From the NCBI RefSeq assembly GCF_042453785.1, contig NC_091669.1, positions 10,614,501 through 10,678,500 on the forward strand: 64,000 nt of DNA, given 5' to 3'. Below, in pieces: positions 15,298 to 62,594 of this stretch. Under the pieces are notes generated by a model that saw nothing but the letters and a program-made list of their open reading frames with translations, was not told where the DNA came from and did no database searches. Source of the stretch: Malus domestica (lineage: Eukaryota > Streptophyta > Magnoliopsida > Rosales > Rosaceae). Every line of letters starts with the position of its first letter. Position 1 is the first letter of the stretch. Both the position numbers and the translations under genes were made by a program.

Positions 15298-16713
15298 TTA
15301 AATTTGATTAATAAAACGTTCCAATGAAGAGTAAGAAGAGCCACCTTCCACCAAGGTTTTCTTGCTCTTTTCACTCATCTCCTTCACTCTTTTCCGTACA
15401 TCACCGTCGCGCTCCATCGCTTGCCTTATCCCTCTTTCTATATCTTCTGCACTCACCAACACGTCACTGTCCTTCCTATAATCCAACTTAATCTCCACTG
15501 CCAATCCCAATTCCTTAACCAGTTGAAAGGCATTCAGGTTTTGCTCCGCGTACATTGGCCACGTGGCAATCGGCACCCCGTTCCATAAACTTTCCAACGT
15601 GGAATTCCACCCGCAATGTGATACAAACCCTCCGATCGCCGGATGGGCCAGGATGGCCGCTTGCGGGGCCCAACCTATCACCTTCCCAATCGGAGCTGTC
15701 CGATTAAGAAACCCTTCGGGCAAGACTGCGTTTAGATCCGCATAGTCGCTTGGCATAGCTATCTTGCCTTTAGGTGGGGGCCGGCGTAGGGACCACAAAA
15801 ACCGCTGCCCGCTATGCTCCAGCGCACAAGCTATCTCTTTCACCTGGGCCTCACTGAAACTTCCCATGCTCCCAAAACATAGGAACACCACCGACAAAGA
15901 GGGCTGATCATCGAGCCACCTGAAGATATCCGAGCCCTTATTTTCATCACATCTTTTGAGGTTCAATAAGGGCCCCACTGGATACACGGGTGGGATTTTA
16001 TCATCAAAATCAAGATAATGAAGAGCATGCAAATCCAGCTCCAAGAATGTATTTACCAAAATACCCTTGATTTGTCTACACCTGCTGGTATAGTTGAGGA
16101 TTGATTCGGTGATCTCTTTGTCCGCAAACGTACCGGGCAAGACTGCGGCAGGGCAAGGGTTGATGAAACTCGGGACGGCCAACTCAGCGCTCGAGCGCGT
16201 AAACTCAGTTATATCTATGCCGCCCTCGTCGCGAAGCAATTGAAAATGGAACAAAAGTGCGAGCAGCGAAGCGTTGGAGGTGAAGAACGCGTAGGAGGGA
16301 ACCATGAATTCGTCAGCCACGTCAACTAGGGTTGCGCATAAAAAGTCGAGCACGAAGCCGGCAAGCCGAGGCCTCGACATCGACTCAGACTGATCTGACT
16401 CAGAAAGTAAGTTGACAACGGCGTCTCTGATGTGAGTTTTGTGATTTTCGACGAGGATTCTGATCAAGGACCCGTGTTTGGGGATGGCTTCTTGTTTGTC
16501 CGGTTGGGCTTCGGGGAGGTTAACGAAGTTGATGCGGTGAGAGATTGAAGAGTCAGCGATGGTGAATGGTTGGTCGTAGGGAAGCTTCATGACGAGGACT
16601 GTGATAAACAGTTGGTCGTCCCGAGCAACGAGTTGCTCTGCAATCTCGATCGCTGATACGATGTGGCCGATAACCGGGCCGGGAACGACAACTAGTTGTG
16701 CTGGTCTCTTCAT
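15298..16713 (-). CDS. UDP-glycosyltransferase, UGT71K1-like (copy A)
   Basis: A 471-aa single-exon family-1 glycosyltransferase, normal length for plant UGTs. The N-terminal acceptor domain begins [17 protein letters not shown], with the catalytic base His17 and its probable partner Asp123 (in VLDF). The C-terminal domain carries the PSPG box from Trp348 to Gln391 with [11 protein letters not shown] Gln at the last PSPG position favours UDP-glucose. The expected role is cytosolic glucosylation of phenolic acceptors; apple/pear UGT71K1/K2 act on phloretin, and substrate here is inference. Differences from copies B and C include VVPGPV at the start, T384 in the PSPG box (A in the others) and many changes at 124-215. 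The start is fixed by alignment with B and C. A TATA-like box and a conserved TGATGTCAT block lie just upstream, and a copia element sits farther upstream (from 17216). Confidence 0.93.
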
Positions 16714-16767
16714 CTTTTCGGAAATGGCAATGAAAAGCTCAGCTGTTTTATTTAGAAAAAATGTTTC

Positions 16768-16795
16768 ATATTATAGTAGAGTGGTGTGATGTCAT
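16768..16795 (-). promoter_or_regulatory. Core promoter of UGT copy A
   Basis: Reading toward the gene there is TGATGTCAT (its complement ATGACATCA at 16787-16795), then CTATAATAT (16768-16776) as a TATA-like box about 55 bp before the ATG. The same arrangement is kept in copies B and C. TGATGTCA resembles a bZIP/TGA-type site with one mismatch; binding is inference. Confidence 0.5.
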
Positions 16796-17023
16796 GCCTT
16801 CGCTCACAGTTTCTGAATTACTGGACAAGTCAAGATCTTAATTAGTTTAATATTGGAATGACGGAAATCAAGCCAGAGGATAAAACAAAAGGTTATCAGA
16901 TTTGATTTTGGTCGCACTACTAGTCGTAGGCCAGTGCAACTGTTTTGCCATTATTACAAGTCGGTCAAAGAGTAGGAATTGAAAAGATATATTATGGATT
17001 AGCACAACCAATAAAGTTTCACT

Positions 17024-17163
17024 ATGATATTCACAAACATCATTTTACTTTTTTCATATTCTTTTAATTTTTTGTAATCGGATTGGATGAATTGAAAAAG
17101 ATCAAATGATAGAAATTAACAAGAGATGTAGGAGAAGTAAAAAATGATGTGTGGATAACACAC
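17024..17163. mobile_element. MITE (about 140 bp) related to 43731-43879
   Basis: It starts 'atgatattcacaaacatca', contains 'atcggattggatgaattga', and ends 'aaatgatgtgtggataacac', the same plan as the MITE at 43731. It interrupts the conserved 'agtttcacttttt' stretch that is continuous at 48708 and 53500. The flanks share only TCACT, so the target duplication is worn. Confidence 0.7.
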
Positions 17164-17215
17164 CCCTCACTTTTTTACTTGGTCTATGTTTTATATTGTC
17201 TTCAGTAGAAAGTTT

Positions 17216-17423
17216 TGTTGAGAGTTATATATTAGTTAAAGTGTAAATAGTAGTTCATTGTTTCACATTGGTGAAGTACATATGTAATACCAATTGTAAC
17301 TCCTATATATACTCCACTTTGGAGATTAATGAATGTATAAGAAATTCCCAAATATTGTCATATATATTTTTGGTATTTACCATGTTTAGTTTAATATTAG
17401 TATTTACCATGTTTAGTTCAATA
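17216..17423 (+). repeat. 5' LTR of the copia element
   Basis: 208 bp, TGTTG...CAATA, with a TATA-like 'cctatatatactcc' inside. It is followed directly by the primer-binding site. Confidence 0.9.
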
Positions 17424-20400
17424 TGGCATCAAAGCAGTTCGCTCTTGGTGACCTATGTGCTTTAATTTTGTGCCCACATTTTTCGTAATTTCCTTCGTAA
17501 AAAAAATTTTAAAAAAAAAAAAAACAAAGTGAATAGTGGCGCTACAGTACAGTGCGTGAACAGTTGTCTGCTTTGTGAACAGTGGTCCTCTACAGTGCCG
17601 TAAAACAGTGATTACTACAGTCGTGAATAGTGCTCTGCTACAGTGTCATAAACAGTGCTCTGCTATAGTATCTGGTAAATTGTTTTCATTCCGCTGCATA
17701 TCTTTTGTGCCTTTATTGTTCGCGATTTTTGTTCAATAGCTCAATATAATCATAGTGTTATTATGCATCTTGGTGGAACAAATAAATGGATAATAGATAC
17801 TGGGGACACTGATCATGTGCCTAGTGACCCTAGAGTGTTTGATGAGTTATGTGATTATGTTCGTGATTCGTATGTTACTAGTGCAAATGGAGCACATTTC
17901 CTTGTGAAGGGTGAAGGCACTATCTTTCTAACTCCTACCTTATCATTGGTCCGTGCTTTACTTGTTCTTGATCTTAAGTGCAATCTTTTGTCGGTAGGAA
18001 AACTTCTTGATACCTTATATTGTTCTGCTCACTTCTACCCTACGTATTGCTATTTTCAAGATATTCAAACTCAGAAGATAATTGATCATGGTAAAAGAAT
18101 AGGGGGTTTGTACATCTTGACTATGGAGGATACTGTTGTTTCTGGTTTAAATAATCATCAAGTTTTAAGTGCTAAAGTGGATGACAGACATCAAATTTGG
18201 TTGTGGCATCGACAATTGGGACATCCATCATTCAGTTATATGAAACATCTATTTCCTTCTTTGTTTCGCACTTGTAGTGATTCAGAGTTCAAGTGTGAAA
18301 CATGTGTTATGGCTAAGAGTCATCGTGCTTCATTTCCTGTAAGTGATTCTAAAGCTACTTTGCCATTTGATTTGATACATTCTGATGTATGGGGTCCAGC
18401 GAAAGTTACTTCTAATGGATTCCGTTAGTTTGTTACTTTTATTGATGATTGTACTAAGTTAACTTGGGTGTTCTTGATGAAGAATAAGAGTGATGTTCCG
18501 TTACTTCTTCAAGAATTTTGTACAATGGTGTCTACTCAGTTTCAGACCAAAGTTAAGGTCTTCAGGTCTGATAACGGGGGAGAATATGTGAATCACACTT
18601 TGGCATGTTTTTTTCGTGATCATGATATTATTCACCAGGCGACTACTCCGTTTACACCCCAACAAAATGGTGTGTCTGAATGAAAGAATAGTCAAATAAT
18701 GGAAGTTGCTCGCTCATTGATGTTGGATAAATGTGTTCCTAATCATTTGTGGGATCATGCTGTTTTGGCTGCTGTGTATTTGATCAATCGTGTTCCAAGT
18801 AGGGTTCTTGATTTTCAGACACGGTTTGATGTGCTACAACAACATGTTTCTCTTGTTTCTGTATCAAATATTCATCCGAAAGTGTTTGGGTGTATTGCGT
18901 ATGCGCATGTCTACTCTCATCAGCGGAGTAAACTTGATGCACGTGCTCTCATGTGTGTATTTATTGGGTATGCTAACAATCAGAAAGGCTATAAGTGTTA
19001 TCATCATCCGACTTAAAAAACTTATATTACTATGGATGTCACCTTCCATGAGGAAGTTTCGTATTTTATGAAGCCCTCTTTCGACTCTCCACTTCAGGAG
19101 GAGATGGGGAGTGAAGTGCAGATTCGAAAAGATGATATGGATGATGTGTTACAGGCAGAGTTGGGAACATAACCTATTATGTTGCGTGATACTAATCAGT
19201 CGACTACAAATAGTGATCGGTCACCTATTATTCCCTGAACTATTTCTACTGACGATATATCAGATGTGCCCAGCGAGTTGCCTGTTAGTATGTCTGACGA
19301 ATTACCTTCTAATGATCGGTTGCCTGCTGCTGATATGTCTAACGAGTTGCCTGATAATGGTTCGTCCAATGATGATTCTTCTAACAGTTTGGTACAAGAT
19401 GGTGGCATACATGAGGTAAATTCTGACGATTCTTCTACTTATCAGTTGCCTCCACGAGCTAATCGTGGAAAACCTAAAGTACAATATGAGCCTGATATGC
19501 ATGCCAAAGCCAAATATCCTATCAACAATTATGTGTCTACTCATCGTTTATCCAAACCATATGCATCTTACATATGTCAGCTATCTAGTGTATCAATTCC
19601 AACAAAATTGCAAGATGCCTTGTCTGACCCTAAGTGGGTTAATGCCATGCAAGTTGAGATGAAAGCTTTGGAAAAGAATTCTACCTGTGATTTGGTTCCT
19701 TTACCAAACGGAAAAAAAAAGCCGTTGGATGTAGATGGGTGTTTACTATTAAGCACAAAGCAGATGGTTTTATTGACCGGTATAAAGCTAGATTAGTTGC
19801 TAAGGGTTATACTCAAACCTATGGGGTGGACTATCAGGAGACATTTGCTCATGTTGCCAAACTTAATATTGTGCATGTTCTTCTGTCCTTAGCAGCAAAC
19901 CAGGATTGGCCTCTGTTGCAACTTGATGTTAAGAATGTTTTCCTTCATGGTGATCTTAAGGAGGAAGTGTATATGGATCTCCCACCTGGTATTGGAACAT
20001 CTCCTGGAAAAGGTGTTGTATGTAGGTTATGAAAGGCTTTGTATGGTTTGAAACAATCTCCTAGAGCGTAGTTTGGGAGGTTTACAAGTTCAATGAAGAA
20101 GTTTGGGTATATCCAGAGTCATTCAGATCATACTTTGTTTCTAAAGCGACAAAATGGTAAGCTAACTGCATTGATTATTTATGTTGATGACATGATAGTG
20201 ACTGGTGATGATCAGAATGAGATACAACGTCTTCAAAAGTACCTAGCTATTGAGTTTGAGATGAAAGAATTGGATGAATTGAAGTATTTTCTTGGAATCG
20301 AGGTTGCACGATCCAAGCATGGTATTTTTCTGTCTCAACGGAAATATGTTCTTGATTTGTTAGCTGAAACAGGTATGTTAGATTGCAAACCTGTTGATAC

Positions 20401-21143
20401 TCCGATTGAGCAGAATCATCGTCTGGGCTTATTTCCAGATCAAGTTCCTACTCATAAGGAACGGTATCAGAGGCTTGTGGGGAGATTAATTTATTTGTCT
20501 CAAACTCGCCCTGACATTGCTTATGCAGTTAGTGTGGTAAGTCAGTTTATGCACTCACCTAGTGAAGCTCATATGGATGCAGTAACCCGTATTTTGAGGT
20601 ACTTAAAGATGGCTCCTAGCATAGGCCTGTTTTTCTCCAAGAATGGTCATTTAAATGTCGAAGGGTATACAGATGCAGAATGGGCAAGTACTATCACTGA
20701 TCGGCGATCTACATCCTGATACTTTACGTTTGTGGGTGGTAATTTAGTTACTTGGAGAAGCAAGAAACAAAAAGTGGTGGCTAGGTCAAGTGCAGAAGCT
20801 GAGTTTCGTGGTATGTCGCATAGTGTATGTGAGTTGTTGTGGTTAAAAAAATTGTTGAGAGATCTTGGGTTTAACCCCAAAGGTGCTTTGAAACTTCATT
20901 GTGATAACAAGGCTGCTATTGAGATTGCTCATAATCCAGTGCAACATGATCGAACAAAACATGTGGAGATTGATCGACATTTCATTAAGGAAAAATTGGA
21001 TGCTGAAATTATTATGTTTCCGTTTGTGAGATCTGAAGATCAACTTGCTGATGCTCTTACTAAGGCTGTGTCTAATAGTGTGTTTTCCAACTCGCTTGAC
21101 AAGTTGGGCATGCGTGACATCTTTGCACCAACTTGAGGGGGAG

Positions 21144-23960: not shown

Positions 23961-23978
23961 TTTTCAACCAAAATAATA

Positions 23979-28529: not shown

Positions 28530-28534
28530 TAATA

Positions 28535-31384: not shown

Positions 31385-31438
31385 CTTTTGAGAAATGGCA
31401 ATGAAAATCTGAGCTGTTTTATTTAGAAAAACTCTTTC

Positions 31439-32259: not shown

Positions 32260-32264
32260 TATAT

Positions 32265-43570: not shown

Positions 43571-43730
43571 GAAGAAGGCAGTTATAATAGCCTTCACGGG
43601 AAGACACAACACAAAACATTAAGATTTTCAAGAGTTCTAAGTAGATCAACCAATATAATACGACAATACGAGTCACCCACGAGTAAGCCAAATGGAAGAA
43701 AATAAACTACTCGTGCAGGATATTCCATGA

Positions 43731-43879
43731 AACGGTGTGATATCCACACACCCTTTTTTACTTCTCCCACACCTTTTTGGTTTTCGACCGTTGGATCGGA
43801 TAAATTGAATAAGATCAACGGACAGAAATTAACAAGGGGTGTGTGAGAAGTAAAAAGGGGTGTGTGGATAGCACATCCC
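43731..43879. mobile_element. hAT-like MITE (149 bp) with 8-bp target duplication
   Basis: TTCCATGA flanks it at 43723-43730 and 43880-43887, and the empty site is visible in the duplicate at about 63070. The ends (GTGTGATATCCACACACC / GGTGTGTGGATAGCACAT) are inverted, as are the inner TTTTTACTTCTCCCACAC / GTGTGAGAAGTAAAAA. Eight-base duplications suit a hAT-type origin. Confidence 0.85.
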
Positions 43880-43887
43880 TTCCATGA

Positions 43888-44316
43888 AATCAAAGTATCA
43901 TTTAACTAAGTATGGCCATGCGCAACACTATAATATACAGAAATCATGCTTTTTTAAGTGACCCGAATATATGTATGAGGCGTCTTTGAGATGGCAGCTT
44001 ATTAACTTGCTATGGCTCAACCGCTAGTGTCCAAAGTTCACTACCAAAGACCATGTGGACAGATTTAAGCGCCATCTAAAAAGAATATAACTTAGACAAC
44101 TGCTGACCTGCACCAAAAGCTAAATTAGCAAGAAAGTAAATTCCAGCTGCAGATACAAACATCACGATACATCACATAAACCTAAGATGAAGCTAAACTC
44201 AATAAAAAGACATGCCCACTGACTTGCCAGAAACCAGCCAGTTTAGTTTTAGGAGAATTCACACTTTTAATCCAGTCCTTAACTATGTATTTTTAAGAAT
44301 CCTGAGAAAATGCATA
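43888..44316. repeat. Duplicated 3' flank of the PPR gene, copy 1
   Basis: Together with 43575-43722 this matches 62930-63480 closely. No separate gene is seen. Confidence 0.8.
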
Positions 44317-46300: not shown

Positions 46301-46740
46301 TGCTAATGATCGAAACCATTAATGATATAAATCATTATGGAAAGATCATCTTTATAAAAAAAAATTAAAGTAATGGTTATTAAGTCAAATAACTGCAACA
46401 AATAGATAAAACAGCTCATAATACTATTAACAATTCTTACTATATATTTTTACACATTTTGATGACATAACGATTTCAAGTGGTGATCTTTACGCAACGA
46501 CATATAATATGAACAATTCTAACGATAAACACAAAATTTTGAGAGTCCGTTACAACACATTTTTAGGAAGATATCCTTCTCATCGTTTCAGTTGTAAAGT
46601 ATTATTCTAAGCATGTATATCAATTGCATGGCTTGTGGGATGGGGGTGGTGTTTTAATTCTTGGATTTTTTTTCATGTGGAGGTGATGATGTCATGCCTT
46701 TGCTGTCATTTGCTAATTTTTTTTCATGTGGTCTACTAAT
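46301..46740. repeat. Block shared with 12600-13255
   Basis: It carries 'gtgctaatgatcgaa', 'aaagatcatctttat' and 'ggtgatgatgtcatgcctt', the last being the UGT promoter block (46687-46695) with no gene next to it. It lacks the MITE found in the 12890 copy. Confidence 0.7.
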
Positions 46741-47047
46741 ACGTTAGTGGTTGGCAATGCTCACAGCATGTAATGAAGAGTTGGTCATCTGAAGCTTTCA
46801 TTATTATTAGTAAAAAAACCTCTATATTGAAAATGATGTCAAAATCAGTTTTTAGGCATGCATTAGGTGCACATACCAGCTGAATTGATCAGTACAAGTT
46901 AGATTTTCAAAGAAGAGAAAATGTCACCACAAGACTTTAAGATTCGATACGTTGAACTATGTATTAACGGAAAACTTACAATACAAACGTTGCAAATTAC
47001 ATGACGTAAAAATAAACGAGGAGAATATAAAAGCCCCCCCAACCCAA
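46741..47047. repeat. 3' flank of UGT copy C
   Basis: Matches 29590-29968 and 14940-15297. Confidence 0.8.
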
Positions 47048-48463
47048 TTAAATTTGATCAATAAAACGCCCTAATGAAGAGTACGAAGAACCACCATCCA
47101 CCAAGGCTTTCTTGCTCTTTTCACTCATCTCCTTCACTCTTTTCCTTACATCACTGTCAAGCTCCATCACTTGCCTTATCCCTCTTTCTATGTCTTCTGC
47201 ACTCACCACCACGTCGCTGTCCTTCCTATAATCCATCTTAATCTCCACTGCCAATCCCAACTCCACCACCAACTGAAAGGCATTCAGGTTTTGCTCCGCG
47301 TACATTGGCCATGCGGCAATCGGCACGCCATTCCATAAACTTTCCAACGTAGAATTCCACCCGCAATGTGATACAAACCCTCCGGTTGCCGGATGGCCTA
47401 GGATTGCCGCTTGCGGGGCCCAACCAATCACCTTCCCAACCGTAGCCGTCCGATCAAGAAACCCTTCGGGCAAGACTGCCTTTAGATCCTCGTAGTCTCT
47501 TGGCATAGCTCTCTGGCCATTAGGTGGGGGCCGGCGTAGGGACCACAAAAACCGATGTCCGCTGTGCTCTAGCGCGCACGCTATCTCTTTCACCTGGGCC
47601 TCACCGAAACTTCCCATGCTTCCAAAACACAGGAACACCACCGAGAAAGGAGGCTGATCATCAAGCCACCTCAAGATATCCGAGCCCTTATCTTCATCAC
47701 TACTTTTGAGATTCAATAAGGGTCCCACTGGATACACGGGTGGGATTTTATCACCAGAATCAAGATAATGAAGAGCATGCGATTCTAGCTCCATGAACGT
47801 ATTTACCAAAATACCCTTGGTTTGTTTCAACATGCTGGCGGAGTTGAGGATTGATTTGGTGCCCTCCTTGTCCAGAAACGAACCAGGCAAGACGGCGGCA
47901 GGGTAAGGGTTGATGAAACTCGGGACGGCCAACTCAGCGGTTGAGCTCGTCAACTCAGTTATATCTATTCCCCCCTCGTCACGAAGCGATTGAAAATGGA
48001 AAAAAAGTGCGAGAGTCGAAGCGTTGGAGGTGAAGAACAGGTAGGAGGGAACCTTAAATTCGTTGGCCACGTCCATTAGGCTTACGCAAAATATGTCGAG
48101 CACGAACCCGGCAAGCCGAGGCTTCGACGTCGACTCAGACTGATCTGACTCTGGGAGTAAGTTGATAACGGCGTCTCTGACGTGAGATTTGTGATTTTCG
48201 ACGAGCATTCTGAAGAAGGACCCGGGATTGGGGACAGTGTCTTGTTTGTCCGGTTGGGCTTCGGGGAGGTTGACGAAGTTGATGCGGTGAGAGATTGAAG
48301 AATCAGTGTTGGTGAATGGTTGGGCGTGGGGAAGCTTCATGACGAGGACTGTGATAAACAGTTGGTCGTCCCGAGCAACGAGTTGCTTTGCCATCTCGAC
48401 CGTTGATACGATGTGGCCAATGATTGGGGCGGGAACGAACACTAGATGTGCTGGTCTCTTCAT
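47048..48463 (-). CDS. UDP-glycosyltransferase, UGT71K1-like (copy C)
   Basis: A 471-aa intronless UGT, about 93% identical to copy B by hand count. It reads [17 protein letters not shown] with His17, Asp123 (VLDI), and PSPG Trp348-Gln391 ending in MYAEQ. All catalytic and sugar-donor residues are kept. Changes against copy B cluster in the acceptor half: [22 protein letters not shown] and [20 protein letters not shown]. Substrate range may therefore differ although the donor should again be UDP-glucose. TATAAAAT and the TGATGTCAT block precede the gene at the same spacing as in A and B. The downstream flank is the shared 3' block, then the PPR pseudogene. Confidence 0.93.
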
Positions 48464-48517
48464 CTTTTGAGAAATGGCAATGAAAAGCTGAGCTGTTTTA
48501 TTTAGAAAAACTCTTTC

Positions 48518-48545
48518 ATTTTATAGTAGAATGGTATGATGTCAT
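48518..48545 (-). promoter_or_regulatory. Core promoter of UGT copy C
   Basis: CTATAAAAT on the minus strand (48518-48526) lies about 55 bp before the ATG, with TGATGTCAT at 48537-48545. Same layout as A and B. Confidence 0.55.
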
Positions 48546-48589
48546 GCCTTCGCTCATAGTTTCTGGATTCCCTACACGTCAAGATCTTA

Positions 48590-48950
48590 ATTAATTTTCA
48601 TACTGGAAAGACTTGGACATCAATAGCAAGAAGATAAAACAAAAGGTTGTCAAATTTTATTTTGGTTCCTCCACTAGCCGTAGTCTATGGATAAGTACCA
48701 CCAATTAAGTTTCACTTTTTATTTTGGTACTTACGTTTCATATTGCCTTGAGTAGAATGTTGAAGAATTGAAAACCGACATGGTTCACACGCGGTCAAGA
48801 TTTCAGTTACCATTACTAAGCACACCATGTTCTATACAGTGGTTATCTTTTCTTCTTCTTTTCTCAAAAGCAACGAAATATTCATCGTCGAATTAGAATC
48901 TTGTTCACAATTAGAATGCTGGGGTTGGGGTTTGTTCACAATTGGAGCAG
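48590..48950. repeat. Distal upstream block of UGT copy C
   Basis: Shared with 53345-53985 and with 16830-17215 plus 21357-21500 ('aaaggtt.tcaaatttgatt', 'attaagtttcact', 'cttgttcacaatt'). It ends where the gypsy fragment begins. Confidence 0.75.
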
Positions 48951-51900
48951 TAGTATAGGTCCCGGAATGGAGATACCCTTACCTTTATCATTCTTCTTTT
49001 GACCCTCATTCTTGTCCTCATCATCCTCACTGTCAGGAAGATTATCAGAGTCCTCCATCCTAACCAAAATCTCGAAATACTCATGATAATCAGCGCAGGG
49101 AAGTGCATTGGCAAAGGTACGCCACTTCTTCTTAGATCCCAACTTGAAACGTCGAAGCATCTCTCCCTGATTACCAGCTATATCAGGGTCATAACGAGAC
49201 AAATCAGTAAACCTTCTATAATATTCATGTGCCGACATATTTCTCTGTTTCAACCTGGTGAATTCCTGTTTCTTACGATCAATATACTCAGGAGGGACGA
49301 ATCTCTTCATAAAATTCTCTTTGAACACTTTCCAGTCGGCTGCCGTCTCAGGTGACATGTACCTAGTCTGATTCATCCACCATGCTGCTGGTTCATGACC
49401 CAAAAACCAAGTGGTGGTCTCCACCCACCTATTAGCAGGGAGATTCCCCTGACTCTGCATCACCTGGAAAGTCTTCTCAATATGATCTAGCCGTTTCTCT
49501 GCCCCCTCATGACTTTCATTACCCATAAACCGATCTAACTTCAAGTTGTACATGGTCTCCAGAGGTGTCCTCGGAGGAGGGGGAGGACGAATCACATTCT
49601 GTAAAGCCTGGGCCATCGCTTCCCCTAGCTGAGTAATATCCGGGAAATTAGGTTCAGAAGTACGGCGGGACTCCCTACGCTCCCTACGAGGCGGCATGAT
49701 TCTGACAGAAAACATCAAAAGATCGTTAAGACATTAACAAATTTACAGGACTGCAACCTAAGCTCTGATACCAAACTGACACACCCCGATCCGGAGGATC
49801 CAGGTGTGCTGGCCGTCACGTGGGCGTGACGTAACCATCGGCGCGACACGGAAGCAAAATAACAATATAACTCAGCAGAAATTCAAACCAAACTCAAACA
49901 TAACCACCTACGAACATAACCGGACGAGTTATCAGGTAAACACATAAGTTCAGAGCATAGGTTAACTGCAGTCAAGTAGGTCTAAAATAAAATACATCAC
50001 CCTCAGGTGAGTCCTACATGTCGAAGGTCTGTCAGAAAGCCGGAAAAGACCTCGAGAGCCACCAACCGCTAATTTAGAACCTGGAGGGGCGCAAAACAAA
50101 ATGAGTGGGTCAGTAAAACCAAAGATTTTCCAAAACATTTCAATTAAAACATTTCTAACCCCTCACCGTAAAACCTGTATACATTCTCCAGAAAAAGTAG
50201 ATATATATAAAACCATATGAAGTCTCAAAACTTAAATCCCAAATCTTTAACATTTTTCAAGGAAACATGCCATGCAATAAATCAAAATATAAATCAGGTG
50301 AAATAAGGAATCAATCGGAGACCCTGCAGTTGGTCCTATACGATTAATTCAACAGCTCAATATCCCACTAAGCCGGAGCCACCACAGTGACCTGTACGGC
50401 CCTACTCTGCACATCACTCGGAACTACGTGAGGTAGTCTATACGATGAAAGGTGTAAAAATACGCTCTAGTGCTTCTCTCATCATATCATCAGCGCGCAT
50501 ATCTAAGGTCACCCACCAGTCAGAACCCCTCTAATGGTCTGTGCGACTGGCATGTCGGAACCCTCACATGGTCTGTACGACATCCACCTACTTGGATCCA
50601 AGGCGAGCGTGCGGTGTGGTGAATAAAATAAGCACTAACACCTAGGGTGCAGGTTATGAGCTTGAAACATCTTATCAACAATCAATTAAATGAATAATGA
50701 ACTCACCTGACTTACCTGTGCCTCCACAGCACCATGCAACATGTATGCATCATATATCAATCATATAACTCATATGAAATTCACATTTTCCAAATAATTC
50801 TATGCATGGCATTTTCAAAACATAATTTCGTATAAATTCATCTTCTGGGAAAAATTAATAGTATAACGGTAATACGAAAACAAAACTGCCCACTCACTGA
50901 TAAGTCGACGGGTCGTAACCCCCGTGGCGTCCCTGGATGCGGTCGTCCTCGGGATACGTCTCACCTATATGCGAAATAAATATAAAAACGTTAATTTTAA
51001 ACACATCACCAATATTTCGAAATAATTTCTCATACGATGCTCAATTTGGGTATATGAATATACCACATCGACCTACTCGACGTCACGAGCGTCGAGAAAT
51101 TTTTAGAAACTGATTTGGACTCCCCACGCGCCCTCACGCGCCGGCTAGAGCTCGGCTCTACGCGCAGGCCACGCGCAGCCACGCGCGGCACGTGTCATCG
51201 TCTTCCCCAGGGTTCGCCGGACTGGTTTTTCCGGCGACCCAATTCCGGCCAAACTTTAAACCTCTTGTTCTCCTTCGTTTTTCACCCATTTTCTTCGTAT
51301 TTTATACCAAATTGAAGCCCTAAGAGTGTACTATCACGTTGGACTAGTTTTAGGGTCTAAAAATCAAGAAATCTCACCGAGCAAAATCCAAGAATTCGGC
51401 CAACTTTGAAACCCACGATCCCGACGTCCAAATCCTTCAAACGAACGTCCCCGAGCTTCCTTAGGACCTCACTAAGCTTGCTATAAGCTTGAATTCCCCT
51501 GAAACACAACATTTTACGTTCGCATGAACAGTACCCAAAAATGGAGGTTTCGGATTCCACGTGAAATCGAAGGTCTCACTTCCTAAAACTAGCACCAATG
51601 AACTCAGGACGTCAAAAGGATGAAGATACATACCTTATTTGCCTCGATCCGTCAAGTTTTGAAGGGTTTTGGTGGTGGTCCGTACGTGGAGGGTGAGGGA
51701 AAGAGAGAGATCGTGAGGGAGAGAGACAGAGAGTGCTACGGGAGGGAGAGAAGACAGGGAGTGCGTGTGTGTGTGATTGTGTGGTCCAACACAATCCTCA
51801 CCATCCATCCAAATCCCTAACCAAAAAAATTCCAATTCCAATAGTTTAATCCCAAAACTTACAAAATTAATTCAGATAATGTCACACACACACGTACCCA

Positions 51901-51968
51901 AATGGCCGTCAAGGGTAATTACGTCAATTCACGCCCCCGATATAGAAATCCCGGGACGGGCTGTGACA
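48950..51968 (-). mobile_element. Ty3/gypsy element, 5' part (LTR, primer site, gag)
   Basis: Reading down the minus strand: an LTR-like region from 51968 (TGTCACAGCCCG...) to 49777 (...TGTCA), about 2.19 kb. Then comes a tRNA-iMet primer site TGGTATCAGAGC (49762-49773) and a gag open frame (about 49700-48950) with the retrotransposon-gag core (RFMGNESHEGAEKRLDHIE, WMNQTRYMSPETAADWKVF, FMKRFVPPEYIDRKKQEF). Protease, RT, integrase and the 3' LTR are not in the window, so it is an incomplete fossil. Age cannot be set without a second LTR. Confidence 0.85.
49777..51968 (-). repeat. LTR of the gypsy element (about 2.2 kb)
   Basis: TGTCACAGCC...GTGTCA on the minus strand, with the primer site a few bases beyond its 3' end. 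Confidence 0.75.
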
Positions 51969-52740
51969 AAAGTCTTTATCATTAATATATTAATGAATTA
52001 CATGTAAGTTACATAATTTTTATAATAAAAATTAGTAATTGATTTAGAGTTTTAATACTCACACCCTTATTAAAATCCTAATTAATTTTCAATTCAAACA
52101 TTTTCAAAATATAAAAAATAAAATTAGAATAAGTTTGTACCCATTACATTTTTACATAAAAAAAAATTGATATGTACCAATTTGTTATATGAAAAATGTA
52201 CCCTTTTTTTTAATACACAATATGTACTAATTTGTTATATGAAAAATGTACCTTTTTTTAATACACAATGTACCCATTTTTTTATATAAAATTCATTCAA
52301 TATTTTCTCTAATCCATTTTAAAACTTATATGGGTACATTCTATTTCGTTGATTTGAAAATGTATTATGTCAAGTTTAATAGAAGAAATTTAATAATGTT
52401 ATTAAGCCTAATATATTCTTCTTTTTTTGTCTTTTTGAAAAATGTACCCATGTTTTGGTACAATAATTTTTTGGTTAGTATTTTTTATGAACGTATTCAT
52501 GTATATATATATATATATATGGATACACACAATATATTGGAGAGTATAATTTATTTTTAATATTTTTAATCCCATAGATTATGGGTTTTATTTTAAATCT
52601 CATTAATATAAATAACTACAAATTTTATTTTTAAGTTAAAAATATAATAACTTATATAGAAATACATTATTACATTACTGTCAGGGACTTCGATAAAAAA
52701 CTAAAAATCACAAAGGTTTCAATCAAAGAACATTGATAGT
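51969..52740. other. AT-rich gene-free stretch with repeats
   Basis: There is a short tandem repeat of 'ttgttatatgaaaaatgtac' at about 52177 and 52230, and an (AT)n run at 52501-52520. It is possibly an old transposon remnant; no family assigned. Confidence 0.45.
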
Positions 52741-53335
52741 TAGGGACCGTATCCAAAGTGTCTATTTAAAATATGTAGACCTTTTAGGGTCACCCTTAAT
52801 GTTTTTTAATAGAGTTCGATTCCACGGGTGCATAGGCAAAAATGGTTTGTGAAGTGGACCATAACTAAGAAATTACAAGCAACATAAGTCGGGTTCAAAT
52901 AGTAATTTTAGACTTGCTATAAATAGCAAGTCAAAATATGTGGAAAAGGAAGTGGACAGTTGACCCGGACGTGACCCGTTTACCCTAGAGCGAACCGACT
53001 TCAAACCCGTTTCCTGCAGCCTTTTTCGACGCCTACTCGAGAGTTTTTCCAGCGAATCGAAGCCACCCACCACTAGAAAACAACTCAGCGTCACCCCAAC
53101 TTTCATTTCCACCCGAATGAACGTCGTCGTCTTCCCTGAGCTCAAGACGGCAATCTCGCCGTTCCTGCACTTTCTGACACCATCCACCACCACCACCTGA
53201 CTCACCTCGACCCTAGAAACAAAACCCTAACTTTCATTTGGGCGTTGGTGCAGCGAGCTTCCCACCAAACGAGGCTTTTCACGGCAATTTCACTGTTCTC
53301 AATCCAGTTTCAGGCCCCCGACACGGGTATAATAT
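52741..53335 (+). mobile_element. LTR fragment related to the solo LTR at 32265-35149
   Basis: It shares the early LTR part ('gtagacctt.taggtcac', 'cacg..cgcataggc') and the later 'catttccacccgaa' region in the same order. Both ends are missing. Confidence 0.55.
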
Positions 53336-53344
53336 TGGGAAATA

Positions 53345-53990
53345 CTTGGAAATCAAGCCACATAATTAAAAAGGTATCAAATTTGATTTTGGTTCCACTA
53401 GTATTCGTAGTCCACTATGCAATTGCTTTGCCATTATGTATAAGTAGGTCAAAGAGTAGGAATTGAAAACATATATCTATGGATTAGCACTACCAATTAA
53501 GTTTCACTTTTTTTATTTTGGTACTCAGCACTTACCATATGTTTCATATTGTCTTGAGTAGAAAGTTGAACAATTGAAAACCGACCCGATGCACGCACAT
53601 TCAGTCAAGATTTCAATTACTTAGCACACCAATGTTGTTCTAGTTTAATCAACATAAAATCTGACATGTATTGTTCATTTGAGGATATCCGATCATGTTT
53701 GGACGATAGGATGGGGAGGGGAGGAGGAGTCTGGCATGTGTTGTTCTTACCATAGGAGGCCTCTGTGTATTAGGAGTGAATTTACTTAATATAAGTTGTA
53801 AATTATGATCTATCAAGTTTACTCTAAGATTACATCCTTTAAAACCATCTTTAGTGGACCATAAGTGCAACCAATTCGACATTGATAACCTTTTCGTTTT
53901 GTAAAGCAATGAAAGATTCATCATCGAATCGGAATCTTGTTCACAATGAAATGTTGGGGTCAGGGTTTGTTCACAATTGAAACGGTAATA
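53345..53990. repeat. Orphan UGT upstream block
   Basis: It is homologous to the distal upstream regions of UGT copies A and C, including 'agtaggtcaaagagtaggaa' (one of the longest matches), but no UGT71K coding sequence lies on the expected low-coordinate side, where an LTR fragment sits instead. It looks like what is left of a lost gene unit. Confidence 0.7.
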
Positions 53991-54159
53991 AGGTCATGTC
54001 GGGTCAAGGGAAACCCGCAGTGATACCAACACAGCAGAGTCAAGTAAGCGGCCAACTACTAATTACAAATAAAACTTTCTCAACTTAATTACATGCACAG
54101 TCCAACATATGTTGAATTCTATCCAAAAAAATTATGATGCAAAAAGTGAAGTCATTCAA

Positions 54160-54370
54160 TACACGTAATTTAACTGCTTTGATTGGCTAGCAATAATATG
54201 ATTCAATCAGTTGTTCATTAAATATTATTTTCTCTATTCTAAATGTAAATTCAACTGCTTTGATTGGTTTGTGAGGGTTTTTTTCTAGCAAGATCTAAGA
54301 TTATTTATTTACTTCAAATATTTGACTTTCCGTTTGTCAATTCACGCATATAAATACGTTTACAATATGT
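54160..54370. repeat. Block duplicated at 43270-43570
   Basis: Same strings as listed for 43270-43570; it includes a local repeat of 'ttaactgctttgattgg'. Confidence 0.7.
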
Positions 54371-54531
54371 AAATCACTCGAAATACGCCGTGATTCAAAA
54401 AATATCTTCTGCACGCTCGTGAGCGTGTGCATGAAGGCTAGTAAAAATAAAAGACAACATATTTTCCAAGAAAAATTTAACCCTTTGAATTTTCAAATTT
54501 CTCCTTGAGAATGATCATAATCTTTGACAAA

Positions 54532-55983
54532 TCATAGGGAAATTTGATCAAGAAAACGTCCCAATGAATTGTAAGAGGAGCCACCAACCATCAGGGCTTT
54601 CTTGCTCTTCTCACTCATGTCCTTCACCCTCTTCCTCACATCACTATCCTTCTCCATCAACTCCTTTATCCCTCGCTCTAGTTCATGTGCCTTCACAACA
54701 TTTGGGTACTCACCGTACAAGTCCCTCCTATACTCCATATTAACTTCCACCGCCAATCCTAATTCCCTCACCAACTCAAATGCATTTAGTTGTTGCTCCG
54801 CGTACACCGGCCAAGCTGCGACCGGCACGCCAAACCATAGGCTCTCCAACGTGGAATTCCACCCGCAATGGGACACGAACCCTCCGACGGCCGGGTGGGC
54901 TAGGATCGCCACTTGCGGAGCCCAACCTATGACCTTCCCAATCCCAGCTGTCCGATCGAGGAATCCTTCAGGTAGGACTGCCTTAGGATCCGAATAGTCA
55001 CTAGGGGAAGCGATAATCCCCTTTGGTGGGGGCTGGCGCAGCGACCACAAGAAGCGATGCCCGCTCTGCTCCAGCCCCGATGCTATCTCCCTCACCTGGT
55101 CCTCACCAAAGCTTCCCATGCTCCCAAAGCACAGGAACACCACAGATGAATCGGGCTGCTCATCTAGCCACTCCAATATATCCGACTTCTGCTGAGCCTG
55201 CTTCGAACCCACCTCGGTTTCACTGATCTTTAGGTTCAGAATAGGTCCCACAGGGTACACAGGTGGGGTCTTACCATCAGAAAGTGAATCAAGGGCGTGT
55301 GATTCCAACTCAACGAACGTATTTATCAGAATACCCTTGAGTTCTCTAAACCTGTTGGCATAGCCAAGGAAAGCTTTCGCACCATCCTTGTCCAAAAGGA
55401 CGCTTGGCAAAACTCCAGCCGGAACCGAGTCGACAAAAGTTGGCAGTGTCAACTCAGCATCCGAGCCCTTGAACTCGCTTACGTGCTTGCCATACACGTC
55501 GCGAATCGTTTGGATATTAAGTACCAGCCCGAGAAACCCGGCCGGCGAAGTGAAGAACATGTACGTAGGAACTCCGAAATCATTGGCCACGTCGACCATT
55601 GTCGTGCAAACCATGTCGATGACAAACCCGGCAACCCGAGTCGACTCGGACTCTGACTCGGCGAGTTTGGAGACAGCATCTTTGACGTAGGGTTTGTGGC
55701 TCTCGACGAATTTGCTGCGGAAGGCGTTGGGACTTTTGCGCGTGTCGATGTCGGAGGCGGCCTGTGGGAGGGTGATGAAGTTGACACGTGACAACACGGG
55801 AGAGGATTCGAGGGAGGATATGTAGGCCTCTGTACCCTTGGATTCGAAGGGGAGCTTCATGATGAGGACTGTGATGAAGAGTTTCTCGTCTCGAGAGACA
55901 AGGAGCTTTGCCATCTCCACGGCGGAGATGAGGTGGCCGGTGCCGGCATAGGGGATGAAGACGAGTTTCATTGGTTGCTTCAT
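54532..55983 (-). CDS. UDP-glycosyltransferase, UGT71 family (D)
   Basis: A 483-aa single-exon UGT beginning [17 protein letters not shown] with His17. The Asp partner is Asp123 (VIDM), and the PSPG box runs Trp354-Gln397 with [20 protein letters not shown]. The terminal Gln points to UDP-glucose. It is clearly in the UGT71 group with A-C but more distant, with a longer loop before the PSPG domain ([19 protein letters not shown]) and an insertion near 415-425 ([11 protein letters not shown]). Acceptors are probably small phenolics; exact substrate unknown. It has its own promoter region, not obviously the A-C type, apart from a weakly matching GATCTCATGCC block at about 56168. All key residues are intact, so it should be functional. 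Confidence 0.93.
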
Positions 55984-56084
55984 TTGGAAATTTATTAGGA
56001 GTTTGATAGCTTTGGAGGAAATGAAAATTTAATTAGCTGATTGATGTACAAGCTTCTTTTCTTTTAGATGTGTGTCTGTGTATG

Positions 56085-56105
56085 TATATACTATATATAT
56101 ACACA
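56085..56105 (-). promoter_or_regulatory. Possible TATA region of UGT D
   Basis: An alternating TATATATATAGTATATAC stretch on the minus strand lies about 110 bp before the ATG. The low-complexity context makes the exact box uncertain. Confidence 0.35.
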
Positions 56106-56410
56106 GATAAATATATACTCACTCTCACACACACACACACATTATGGATGTAAATGATGGAGGTGATGATCTCATGCCTTTGCTGGCATTGGTTAAATTG
56201 TTTAGTTAATTCGCAGGATATTTATAACAAAGACTTGGAAACCAAGAAAAGGACCTTTGGGGTTCAGAGAAAGTTTCATGCATGCCTCTTGGCCACAAAT
56301 TACGGAAGAGAAATTGGAGTAGTGATCACGGGAATAGATAAGTTGTGTGAATATTCGAGAAAAAATATTCATAAAATAATACGATAAATTCTGTAAATGT
56401 TGGATAGAAC

Positions 56411-58462
56411 CAAGGAACAAAATGCCGCCGATATTATCGGTTTTTCACAATACCAATATTTTAATAGGTATCCAACGGGTTTTCGTCAAAATATCGCGAT
56501 ATTATTGATAATATCGATAATATCGCGATATTTCCGAAACTATCGCGATATTTTGGAACTGTGCTACTCGGAGAAGAACTGGAGAAGAACGCCGGAGCTT
56601 CTACAGCTTCGGCCGACTGTAAAAGAGCACCCTAGACACCGATCTAGGTATCAAAATGAAATAGAAGACGAGATGAATGTTTTTATAAATTCTGTTTGCC
56701 GTGAAACAGTCGGAGGTGTTTAGAAAGTTCGTCGACACCCACGACCTCGCCGGAGATGGGTGTGCCTATTCCCGAGCCAATTTCGTCCCAAAAACCTTGC
56801 AAAAACACAATTTTGAACTTAAATTTCACATATAAGCTTCAACTAGAACAGAAAGAGGCAAACCCGAAGCTTACCTAACCGGAGAAATTCAAGAACCTCG
56901 CCGAAGTTCCTACGTTCGCCGAGTTGCAGAGACGAGAAGGAGAGGGAGAAAGACAAGGTTGCTAATGATGATGGGTGTCTTCCTGAAGCAGGTGCGATGG
57001 TGTGCGTGTGTGTATGTGGGTCTCGGACCCTCGGTGCAGAGACAAAAGAGAGAGACAGTGCCGACGAGGGAGGAGCAGAAGGCGATGTGGGAGAAGGATC
57101 GAGAGACCTTGGGTCTTTGTGCATGTGTGTGGGAGAAGGATCGAGAGACCTTGGGTCTCTGTGCATGTGTGTAGGAAATCTGTGTGTGTGTGTGGGAGAA
57201 TGGAGAAGGGAGATCAGAGAAGAGAGAAGGATGGAGAGAGAGAGACTGTGTGCATGTGTTGTGTTGTGTTGTGTGCGTGTGTTGTGTTATGTGCGTGTGT
57301 GGTGGCGTGTCGGTGTGTGTGTGTGGTTGGGTCATCTGACTCACACTCACCTGACAACTTTTACAATCACTTTTTACAATTTCAGACCATGGACAAAAAT
57401 AATAGTGCTTTCATAATGAAACCGTGTGCCATTGTGAGTTTGTGATATTCTTTCACATTCAAAACCGTGTGCCACTGTGAGTCTGTGATATTCTTTCACA
57501 TTCTCAGAGGTGGAGTATCAGAGCCATTCAGAGCATTTTCGTTTCTTCTTCTTCCCTTACCCCTTTCAAAGTCATTCCAGATCCATTCCAGAGCTTGAAC
57601 ACAAAGGTTCCATATTTAAAGTAAGTTTACAAACTTATATTTATATTATTGTAATTTATACAACAACAAAAAAATTTGTATGGACTCGTATGTTAATTTT
57701 TTTAAGTAATTAAGTAATGTTGTATAATTATTCCCTAGGATAATTTTAATATGTTTAATGTTATTTATTATTTTATTAATATTAGGTTTGATTATCAAAT
57801 TGGATTATTATTCATTAATATTAGGTTTTTTAGTTATCAAATTGGATTATTATTCATTAAATTGGATTATTATCAATCTTCAAATGATTTTGCTTATGGA
57901 CAAGGTCAACCAATCTCGGATCCATATGGGTGACATGTTAACAATTACATGCAAAACTATTTTGGGGATTTATCATTTGATAACTACTATTCACAATACA
58001 CTCACTCTACACATAGAGATGATGAAGATAGTGAAAAATTTGAACCTCATAGGAACTCTATGTGGTACTAAGTCACTCATGTATCTTACCATGCAATGTA
58101 TAAAGTATAAAATATTGTACTAATTAATTATATATAAATGATTATGGTGTGTTTAAACTTCTTTCATTAATTACTACATATTTTCTACACTCACAATGTT
58201 TGCCAGCTCGCTATATAATCAACTTGATAATGTTAAATTCATCATGCAATGCATTTCCTTCCAATTTTTTTTGATAAACTAATAGATAATTGACTAAATA
58301 AACATCCTGCAAAGTTTCAATAAAAATTTCCAAGTTTTTCTTACAATTTCCGTGGTTTCCATATTATTTTTATCGATATCGATATTATCCCGATATTTCC
58401 ATCGATATTTCTGTGTTTTCGGACTACCGATATTTCCGATATCATCGATATTTAATACCTTG
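56411..58462. mobile_element. TIR-like element (2052 bp) containing an LTR piece
   Basis: The ends CAAGG and CCTTG are flanked by a perfect 8-bp duplication GATAGAAC (56403-56410 and 58463-58470). Both end regions are full of 'cgatatt' and 'gatattatcg' palindromic strings. The middle (about 56570-57350) resembles part of the 24631/38540 LTR family. No transposase. It is non-autonomous, perhaps hAT-like from the 8-bp duplication. Confidence 0.65.
56570..57350 (-). mobile_element. LTR fragment inside the TIR-like element
   Basis: It shares 'gccggagct.ctacagct', 'ccgatctaggta' and 'gtcggaggtg' in order with 26190-26340 of the nested solo LTR. It continues into 'gagagag' and GT-rich sequence, including a 42-bp tandem duplication at about 57089-57172 (gaaggatcgagagaccttgg). 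Confidence 0.55.
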
Positions 58463-58649
58463 GATAGAACGGGAGAGTTCTTTGTTTTGAAATCCAACTA
58501 CATAATATATATTTTAAGACTATCCAAATTAAAAATAAAAACTCAAAAATAAATCGGATAGAACGGGAGAGTTCTTTGTTTTGAAATCCAACTACATAAT
58601 ATATATTTTAAGACTATCCAAATTAAAAATAAAAACTCAAAAATAAATC
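58462..58649. repeat. Perfect 94-bp tandem duplication
   Basis: 58462-58555 and 58556-58649 are identical, each starting GGATAGAACGGGAGAG. The unit starts at the target duplication of the 56411-58462 element. Lack of any difference indicates a very recent event or an assembly artefact. Confidence 0.92.
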
Positions 58650-59269
58650 GACGACTTGTAGTAGGACTTATATAATAGAGGTGTACCCTAATAATTACTT
58701 TTATTTATTTTTTTATGAACCAACGTTATTATCTACATTAAAGGGGAGAGAGAGTGGGCTTAAAGTTCACAATAGACTATCAATATTATAGTTCAAATTT
58801 ATCTTTAGCAAGAATCGAATCTAAAAACTATCACTTATAAATAAAAAAGAATATCACTAAACCGTAGTACGAAGTGATTAATAATCATTTTTTAATAGTT
58901 ACAGAAAACATAATATTTCTAACATTACTCGTCAATCAAACGGACTTAAGTTGAATTCATTTTTAGGCAACTTTTTTCTTTTTAATATGCTTTATTTCTC
59001 CATCCTCACTTCCACGAGCTTATTCTTCTTCGTTCAATATTTTTCTTATATACATTTCCAATATTTTAAATGGAATTAATAAAGAAAGACGCAATGACCT
59101 GAGCTGTAAAAGAACAAATTTGCTTTTTGACCTGGGGGAGTCGTAGCCGACAAGAATACTGCAGTCTGAAGAAAAAGACAGATTCCGAAAGCTGACCCGG
59201 CATGCACCTTCCACCTCGTAATCTATTTCTTTGTCTTCTTTCTTTATTTAAATTATTACGATTTAATCA

Positions 59270-59385
59270 CGTCAATATTTAATATTATTTTTTTATAAAT
59301 ATAATAAGATAAAAAATAATATTACGTCAATATTTAATATTATTTTTTTTATAAATATAATAAAACAAAAAATAATATGTGTGAG
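59270..59385. repeat. Tandem AT-rich repeat
   Basis: The unit 'acgtcaatatttaatatta', followed by T-run and 'ataaatataataa', occurs twice at about 59269 and 59323. Confidence 0.75.
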
Positions 59386-59755
59386 AAGAAGAAGAAAAAA
59401 GATAAGAATAGAAGGAAAGAGAATCCTACTATGTAATAATTATATAGACATATTGAGGAAACAACGGACGTGCATATTTATGACTCCCTTGCCACGTGGT
59501 ATCTTACTATGTTAGTGATTTCCGCACTACCTGTTTTTTAAATTTACACTCTTTCGTTTGGATTTTTCTTTTATTTCCTACAGAAGGAGGTCTGAAAGAG
59601 GTGTGGAAATTGCTCCCGATAATGTGCACGTCGATTAAAATGGAAATTAAAAACTGCTCATTGGACTTTGCATACTAAGAAATCATTGGACCAAGAAATC
59701 ATTGGACTTTTGATTTGTTATTATGCTACCAAGATAATTAAGCTGCACTAATTAG

Positions 59756-61264
59756 TCACAGGAAGATCTGATCAATGAAACGGTCCAATGATGAGTGTGA
59801 GGAACCACCATCCATCAACGCTCTCCTGCTCTTCTCACTCATCTCCTTCACCTTCTTCCTCTGCTCACTCTCAACCTCCATCACCTCCCTTATCCCTCTC
59901 TCTATCTCCTCCGCCCTCACCACCACCTCCCCTTCCCTCCTGTAATCCATCTTAATCTCCACCGCCAGTCCCAACTCCCTCACCAGCTCAAACGCATTCA
60001 ACTGCTGCTCCACGTACATTGGCCAAGCCGCAACTGGCACCCCGTACCAGAGACTCTCTAGGGTTGAATTCCACCCGCAATGGGACACGAACCCACCCAC
60101 CGATGGATGGCCCAAGACCGCAACTTGCGGGGCCCATCCTATGACCTTCCCTGTCCCGGCCGTGCGGTCGAGGAACCCTTGGGGCAGGACTCCGCTGGGA
60201 TCAGCATAATCACTGGCGAATGGAAGCTCCCCCTTTGGCGGGGGCTGGCGTAGGGACCACAAGAATCGGAGGCCGCTGTGCTCAAGCGCGGCGGCTATCT
60301 CCTTCACTTGGTCCCCACCAAAGCATCCCATGCTCCCAAAGCACAGGAACACCACCGACAAAGGAGGTTGATCATCAAGCCACTCCAAAATTTCCTTCTT
60401 TTTGGCCAGCTCCGAGCCTTCAGGGTCACTCTTCAAGTTCAGTATGGGCCCTACAGGGTACAGCGACGGGGTTTTGCAGTCGGTAAGAGCTCCGCGGCCG
60501 TGGGATTCTAGCTCCATGAAGGTGTTTACCAAAATCCCCTTGGTTTCTCTGAACCTTCTGGCATGGTTGATGAACTCTGTGGCGCTATCCTTGTCCAGAT
60601 ACATGCCAGGCAAGACTCTAGCAGGCATTGGGTTGACAAGACACGGCAAAACCAAATCAGGATCCGATTCCTTCAGCTCAGTGCAGTCCTTGTTCTGCTC
60701 GTCATGAAGGGTTTGGAGGTGGAGCACAAGCCCGAGAAAGCCTGCGCCGGACGTGAAGAAGACGTAGGTAGGAACCCCAAACTCATTGGCCACGTCTATC
60801 ATGGTGGTGCAGAACATGTCGATGACAAACCCGACTAGACTGGGCTTGCAATCAGACTGAAGGGCCTCACTAGTGAGCTTCGCGACTGCATCTCTGACGT
60901 GTTGTTTGTGATTTTCAACGAATAGCTTCAGGAAGAGGCTGGTCTTAATACCCTTCGTCTCTACGGCTTCCTCCGGGAGGTTGATGAACCTGATACGTTC
61001 GGCGTCGTCAGCACCCTTGAGCTTCAACTTGGACTCCAAGGGCAGCTTCATGGTGAGCACTGTGATGAAAAGCCGGTCGTCTCGAACAACTAAGAGCTTT
61101 GCGATCTCGAACGAGGACGCAAGATGGCCAATACCTATGGCAGGAATGAACACTAGCTCTCTCTCTCTCTCTCTATATATATATATTACACGTAAGTATG
61201 TATGTGTATACATATCGAAGCATGCACATGGATTGTGGTGTTTTATATAACAAATATAAACCAC
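59756..61264 (-). CDS. UDP-glycosyltransferase, UGT71 family (E), start region altered
   Basis: The UGT body is complete from [12 protein letters not shown] (residue 36 on) to the stop. His47 and Asp149 (VIDM) are present, and the PSPG box is Trp377-Gln420 with [20 protein letters not shown]. The expected reaction is UDP-glucose transfer to small phenolics; substrate unknown. It is closest in feel to D and other UGT71s. The usual first codons (MKxPxxLVFIP) are not there: the frame runs straight from ELVFIP into a (CT)n(AT)n microsatellite (RERERE, IYIY). The only in-frame ATGs are 18 and 35 codons upstream of the family start, in unrelated sequence. It may use a new start with an odd 30-residue leader, or be silent. 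The annotated start (61264) is the farthest in-frame ATG and is uncertain. Confidence 0.8.
61157..61187. repeat. (CT)n(AT)n microsatellite at the UGT E start
   Basis: An 18-bp CT run followed by about 13 bp of AT, lying exactly where the first codons of the UGT should be. Confidence 0.9.
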
Positions 61265-62590: not shown

Positions 62591-62594
62591 TGTC

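Follow-up and report, generated by a model that had tools for sequence, protein, structure and literature searches.

A repeatedly duplicated array of UGT71 glucosyltransferase genes on contig 9 of apple, with one copy that lacks its native start

The phloretin 2'-O-glucosyltransferase of apple, UGT88F1, which we take to be the same enzyme as MdPGT1, is a plant UDP-glycosyltransferase (UGT) with a PSPG box. Phlorizin is assigned to MdPGT1 and trilobatin to MdPGT2, and lowered MdCHS or MdPGT1 decreased phlorizin by up to 90% (PMC11638483). Phloretin is also an acceptor for UGT71K1/K2 and UGT71A15/A16 of apple and pear; UGT71A15 takes chalcones, flavanones, a flavone and flavonols as well, and its Km for phloretin is 82 uM and its kcat/Km 0.005, as compared to 0.62 uM and 15.68 for UGT88F1 (PMC5059724). 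The activity of UGT71A15 on phloretin is slow, 2.4 mU/mg (PMC8278484). Another apple member of the UGT71 family, MdUGT71B1, acts on quercetin, phloretin, kaempferol and naringenin according to PMC10825616, which cites another paper for this, and the strawberry enzymes UGT71A33/34/35 and 71W2 take both phenolics and abscisic acid (ABA) (PMC10825616). Here we describe a row of UGT71 genes in a 64,000 bp stretch of the Malus domestica genome (the window; contig 9, positions 10614501-10678500 of NC_091669.1 in assembly GCF_042453785.1). The locus is a real but ordinary birth-and-death array, and the reading that we favour is that of a repeatedly duplicated set of broad phenolic, possibly ABA, glucosyltransferases, one of which, gene E, has lost its native start by a deletion.

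Five full-length and intronless UGT frames, A to E, all on the minus strand, are found in the window (Table 1), in agreement with a preliminary description of this DNA, and all five match Pfam PF00201 (E 2.7e-22 to 3.3e-24). The same description spoke of a cluster of five, which is correct for the window, but the array is cut by the window edge. It consists of at least eight UGT71 genes over 64 kb (10629801-10694044), of which the window holds the left five, and the twins of C, D and E (C2, D2 and E2) all follow within 16 kb to the right, with E2 ending 15.5 kb beyond the edge. A search of the whole genome (651 Mb, 19 contigs) with B gave 33 matches at E <= 1e-60, with 90 of 396 candidates scored, and ten genes were far ahead of the rest, namely the eight array genes and two on contig 17, H1 and H2. 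His17 and Asp123 (B numbering) and the 44-residue PSPG box with its terminal Gln are present in all ten, and the frames of the eight array genes are open. A terminal Gln in this box is typical of UDP-glucose use, and in the usual UGT mechanism a His/Asp dyad activates the acceptor. No sixth UGT71-like fragment was found within the window by tblastn with UGT71-type queries.

The array genes belong to the UGT71 family and are apart from other UGT families, as the preliminary description had also proposed; grouping with unrelated families was not seen. In a tree of 21 rows, made from the ten array and contig-17 genes, a UGT71 group with Gly at residue 15 and six rows of other types, the ten genes form one clade (99/96). 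The Gly15 group (contig 11 and the gene at 10711412 on contig 9) is separate (97/97), and so are the six rows of other types (100/100), for which the labels UGT72 and UGT88 are our assumption. Of the PDB sequences listed for D, six reach E <= 1e-100, with UGT71AP2, two UGT71G1 constructs, 8wp5 (LbUGT1, UGT71AT6) and 8w53 (LbUGT3, UGT71BG1) among them, while 7bv3, one of the same six, is named UGT74AC2 (PMC11139883). LbUGT1, LbUGT3 and Medicago UGT71G1 (2acv) are among the best solved relatives by sequence, but the two first are phenolamide enzymes of Lycium and the third is a triterpene/flavonoid enzyme (PMC11139883), and their acceptor half has diverged from that of the array.

The homology of A, B and C extends 195-220 bp upstream and 304-456 bp downstream of the coding frame, and the promoter-side and 3' flanks that these genes were said to share are thus there. 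The identity is 83.2% over 2112 aligned bp for A-B, 85.3% over 1990 for A-C and 90.6% over 1998 for B-C. Past approximately 200 bp the 5' flank of B is only 32-47% identical to those of A and C, which is not alignable. That the genes arose as whole units, as suggested earlier, holds for units of about 2 kb in A, B and C. Separately, pieces of a larger stretch, with a pentatricopeptide repeat (PPR) region followed by C, D and E, are found again to the right with their order unchanged. These pieces are 94-98.5% identical, apart from one spacer piece at 86.5%, and parts of the spacers have no second copy. Piece by piece, the identity is 96-97% for PPR, 94.0% for C, 96.3% for the stretch left of D, 96.8% for D, and 98.3-98.5% for E with its upstream flank, as seen in self-comparison. 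The PPR region was duplicated together with the UGTs (copy 2 at window-relative 63063-66467, copy 3 at about 89417-92683), and the copy between E and C2 recurs beyond E2 at 98.2%. The shared strand and family, the homologous flanks and the graded synonymous divergence show that this is a tandem array formed by repeated duplication. Two tail pieces of a D-type UGT (residues 400-482 and 367-393) are located between C2 and D2, at window-relative 69950-70734.

The history of the array was followed by synonymous divergence (Ks, Nei-Gojobori) among the ten array and contig-17 genes. The Ks between A and B/C/C2 is 0.19-0.22, among B/C/C2 0.038-0.052, and in the youngest pairs 0.012 (D-D2) and 0.019 (E-E2). 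The D, E and H types differ from one another, and the D and E types from A/B/C/C2, by 0.99-1.22; H1 and H2 differ by 0.045 from each other, by 0.83-0.95 from A/B/C/C2 and by 0.99-1.07 from the D and E types. For a yardstick, seven UGT pairs were compared, six between contigs and one within contig 7 (L017-L030, 0.139). Five of the six cross-contig pairs have a Ks of 0.19-0.24 and the sixth, at 0.98, is presumably not homeologous; we assume that the apple whole-genome duplication is the source of these pairs. Four lineages, A/B/C, D, E and the H type of contig 17, thus predate all other splits by far. The separation of A from B/C/C2 is about as deep as that of the presumed homeologous pairs, B/C/C2 came apart later, and D-D2, E-E2 and the PPR2-PPR3 flank represent the latest duplications. 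D and E had been called older copies, which their lineages are, but both also have very recent twins. The protein identities are 80% for A-B, 82% for A-C and 93% for B-C, as compared to 57-60% for D and 58-62% for E against A/B/C, and 63-64% for D-E.

Synonymous changes were counted at 16 of 320 sites in C-C2 and at 10 of 658 sites in D-D2 and E-E2 taken together (Fisher p 0.0025), so that a single block duplication does not account for all pairs. Moreover, nine consecutive derived sites (alignment columns 1436-2307) are common to B and C2 inside a background where C2 goes with C. These are nine of the twelve derived sites shared by B and C2, and none of 100000 shuffles reached such a run; 39 of the 95 informative sites entered the test, the 56 before column 586 being dropped where the flank of B is not alignable. 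The tract points to gene conversion or unequal exchange as the simplest account.

Contig 17 has flanks homologous to the array, and the flanks and the place would agree with H1 and H2 as simple homeologs of C, but a Ks of 0.83-0.95 is too high for this. As it is about four times that of the five cross-contig pairs at 0.19-0.24, ancient paralogs with reciprocal loss are preferred. A 32-codon N-terminal relic, 69% identical to E2 and 65% to H1, is found at 11617063-11617158 of contig 17, near the flank homologous to E. It is near the expected site of E and suggests that contig 17 once had an E copy.

The array belongs to a well-known kind of plant glucosyltransferase gene row, and its odd part is the start of E. 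A frame is present, as described earlier, but E does not count as intact by ordinary standards, having lost its native ATG, and the longest frame begins at what is no more than an upstream GTG (61264). The alignment of E with E2 runs for 1471 bp at 98.5% identity, after which about 125 bp of E2 are missing from E, and this stretch holds, in E2, the ATG, codons 2-5 and the preceding sequence. It has a (GA)n tract at one border and GAG at the other, which makes a deletion by slippage or microhomology likely. In E the (AG)9 tract runs straight into codon 7, its last GAG being codon 6, and downstream of this junction the frame is open and the catalytic residues are kept. Two out-of-frame ATGs, at 61229 and 61223 (frames of 18 and 16 codons), come ahead of the displaced in-frame ATG, and in the E/E2 alignment a one-base difference creates a stop in the corresponding frame of E2. 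The deletion at the (GA) repeat took away the native start of E, and E may be silent, or else its protein may begin at the displaced ATG and carry a new N-terminus. A structure prediction for this 485-aa frame, based on a five-row alignment, had a mean pLDDT of 41.4 and a pTM of 0.37; it was not informative and was not used. The (GA)n lies in frame between the displaced ATG and codon 6, and one could imagine E as a start-relocated enzyme with a length-unstable switch, likened to the phase-variable loci of bacteria, but we regard this as very improbable. If it were so, the N-terminus of E would hold Arg-Glu repeats, and one GA unit gained or lost would flip E off or on between alleles.

B had been likened to UGT71K1/K2, and this is probably wrong. 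Where the UGT88F-like enzyme has His15, UGT71K1/K2 have Gly and UGT71A15/A16 have Ile (PMC5059724). Provided that residues in that paper are numbered from the start codon, the corresponding residue 15 is Ile in A, B, C, C2, E2, H1 and H2 and Thr in D and D2. E is outside this count of nine genes as it has no native start. Gly is found in the four contig-11 genes and in the gene at 10711412 on contig 9, all of which are UGT71 genes with one intron, and His in the UGT88F-type proteins L031 and L032 (contig 15) and L033 (contig 8). UGT71K1 and UGT71A15 were otherwise compared by published identity percentages rather than by sequence alignment. These are 34.6% for UGT88F1-UGT71A15, 36.1% for UGT88F1-UGT71K1 and 46.3% for UGT71A15-UGT71K1 (PMC5059724). 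B/C/C2 are 34.2-34.8% identical to L032 and 45.7-46.3% to three of the four contig-11 proteins, close to UGT71A15, although such figures do not settle orthology to a given copy. The contig-11 proteins are 34.4-35.5% identical to L032, against the published 36.1% for UGT71K1; D is 37.3% identical to L032 and 45.9-47.1% to contig 11, and E2 36.0% and 47.2-48.8%. The percentages fit several assignments and did not decide the matter for B, which leaves residue 15, an indirect criterion, as the deciding evidence, and by this residue A, B and C are probably of the UGT71A15/A16 type. The Gly15 gene on contig 9 (L024, 10711412-10713122, plus strand), which is followed by a broken second copy and lies 33 kb to the right of the window, is a UGT71K-like candidate. 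In the accessible parts of the literature searched, we found no gene identifier, primer or map position placing UGT71A15 or UGT71K1 on chromosome 9, and nothing joining UGT71 tandem duplication to chromosome 9 of Malus, with most of the subscription literature outside this search.

The array proteins would be soluble, inverting UDP-glucose glucosyltransferases in which the His/Asp dyad activates a hydroxyl or carboxyl acceptor, and they most probably act broadly on flavonols, chalcones and other phenolics and possibly on ABA, like UGT71A enzymes of apple and strawberry. The differences among the copies seem to gather in the acceptor half; residues 1-245 hold 27 of 35 differences in B-C2 (p 0.002) and 61 of 96 in A-B (p 0.012). 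Several points weigh against our reading. The acceptors are deduced from relatives. The excess in the acceptor half is not significant in two of the four pairs compared, B-C (22 of 32, p 0.066) and C-C2 (17 of 25, p 0.15), and the four pairs are not independent of each other. The UGT71A label depends on one published residue, and the identity figures, which fit B/C/C2 as UGT71A15-like, would fit D or E2 as UGT71K1 with contig 11 as UGT71A15 about equally well. The tree tool warned of long branches meeting, and H is joined to A/B/C with only 86/94. Finally, the ratio Ka/Ks is near 1 in the youngest pairs (D-D2 0.91, E-E2 0.93, B-C2 0.91), which is also compatible with copies under no constraint.

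One alternative, possible but rather doubtful in our view, is that the array serves ABA homeostasis, with ABA glucose ester as its main product or with a role in buffering the ABA that stress induces; such a function is reported for UGT71A33/A35 of strawberry and has been suggested for UGT71B6-like genes of Prunus mume. UGT71A33 and UGT71A35 of strawberry act on ABA, and seven of nine tested UGT71B6 homologues of Prunus mume were significantly raised by ABA (PMC6274698). The strawberry enzymes mentioned in the beginning are however promiscuous, taking phenolics as well, and the argument is one from relatives. P. mume offers a likeness also in gene order, by description and not by sequence, as some of its UGT71B6-like group E genes have near-consecutive numbers (Pm014836, Pm014846-848) and the whole UGT family has 32 tandem duplication pairs (PMC6274698).

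Another tentative explanation, to which we would give the same modest weight, is drift, with most recent copies redundant and on their way to being lost, E a pseudogene, and one or two genes that matter. The Ka/Ks of the recent array pairs is 0.50-0.93, as compared to 0.22-0.30 in pairs with a Ks above 0.8, and the lost start of E, the D-type tail fragment and the relic on contig 17 all speak for decay. Against this, all eight frames are open with their catalytic residues kept, the Ka/Ks of H1-H2 is 0.29, and the high ratios are imprecise, since the two youngest pairs have only 4 and 6 synonymous changes.

The preliminary description suggested a dihydrochalcone locus, where a UGT71K1-like B would make phloridzin or trilobatin from phloretin, and this we consider unlikely. 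Phloretin is accepted by enzymes of the same family, UGT71K1/K2, UGT71A15/A16 and MdUGT71B1, which makes some phloretin activity plausible; the locus of MdUGT71B1 was not found, and this gene is possibly, but not necessarily, among those of the array. By identities alone UGT71K1 could even be placed in the array, with D or E2. Against this, none of the nine array and contig-17 genes that keep a native start has the Gly of UGT71K1/K2 at residue 15, their residue being Ile or Thr, and the Gly15 genes of this genome have one intron and are found elsewhere. UGT71A15 is weak on phloretin, and genes that we take to be of the UGT88F1 type are located on other contigs (contig 15, 51313547-51338729, L031 and L032; contig 8, L033). 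These are likely candidates for the phloridzin enzymes of this genome, and the identity of L032 to the eight array proteins and to H1 and H2 is 33.5-37.5%. No dihydrochalcone-pathway gene was recognised among the window's open reading frames of at least 120 aa (20 frames, 12 of them scanned with Pfam; intron-split genes were not sought). In the accessible part of PMC9280197, where guides against MdPGT1 were sought, the term is not present. Given the position of the UGT88F types, the assignment of phlorizin to MdPGT1 (PMC11638483) and the gene content of the window, the name dihydrochalcone locus is not warranted here. A weak phloretin activity of the array enzymes is, all the same, quite possible.

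It is still less probable that C2-D2-E2 and the deletion in E are an artefact of assembly or haplotype, with two alleles placed end to end; the D-D2 and E-E2 regions are 96.8-98.5% alike, which is within the possible range for alleles of an outbreeding tree, but C-C2 are just 94.0% identical and synonymously more diverged than D-D2 plus E-E2, the spacers differ in content with one piece at 86.5%, and there is a third PPR copy.

Besides the UGTs, the window shows PPR frames and pieces of Copia and Gypsy type in the 12 scanned frames. Copia-type remnants with gag pre-integrase, Pol beta-barrel and RVT_2 domains are spread over several frames between A and B at 17763-20719 on the plus strand, and no Pfam match was obtained for the frame that follows, 20732-21136. 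A retrotransposon gag frame (PF03732; 48936-49718, minus strand) lies 473 bp upstream of C. Many further UGT exons, with frames mostly of 250-340 aa, flank the array on contig 9 at about 10.02-10.26 Mb and 10.73-10.84 Mb, and such exons and frames are also found on contig 17 at about 11.04-11.41 Mb.

Table 1. Features of the UGT71 array. Positions are those of the window unless a contig is given.
Feature	Position	Strand	Remarks
Gene A, UGT71, intronless	15298-16713	-	471 aa; His17, Asp, 44-residue PSPG box ending in Gln
Gene B, UGT71, intronless	29969-31384	-	471 aa; tract of derived sites common to B and C2
Gene C, UGT71, intronless	47048-48463	-	471 aa
C2, twin of C	contig 9, 10681802-10683214 (window-relative 67302-68714)		outside the window
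Gene D, UGT71, intronless	54532-55983	-	483 aa
D2, twin of D	contig 9, 10689118-10690560		outside the window
Gene E, longest frame	59756-61264	-	502 aa counted from GTG
Gene E, conserved coding part	59756-61156	-	codon 7 of E2 through stop
E2, twin of E	contig 9, 10692635-10694044		outside the window
(AG)9 tract, deletion junction relative to E2	61157-61174	-	E/E2 alignment
In-frame displaced ATG (61213), with the new N-terminal codons that precede (AG)9	61175-61213	-	485-aa frame
TATA-box-like TATATAAA	61242-61249	-	identical in E2; 36 nt before the displaced ATG
PPR-C-D-E stretch	43582-62781	.	repeated in pieces, with the order kept, at window-relative 62922-81273
PPR gene region (PPR/E-motif)	43880-46719	-	reading frame open in two neighbouring pieces (44317-45186, 45198-46025)

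The label "71K1-like" on genes of this kind can wrongly assign a locus to phloridzin synthesis, and in breeding the window is not to be treated as a phloridzin locus without enzyme data. Tandem UGT arrays are a main source of new plant glycosides, and this one shows several stages of the process together, with an older copy, younger copies carrying a conversion tract, the very young D and E pairs, a fragment, and a copy that has lost its start.

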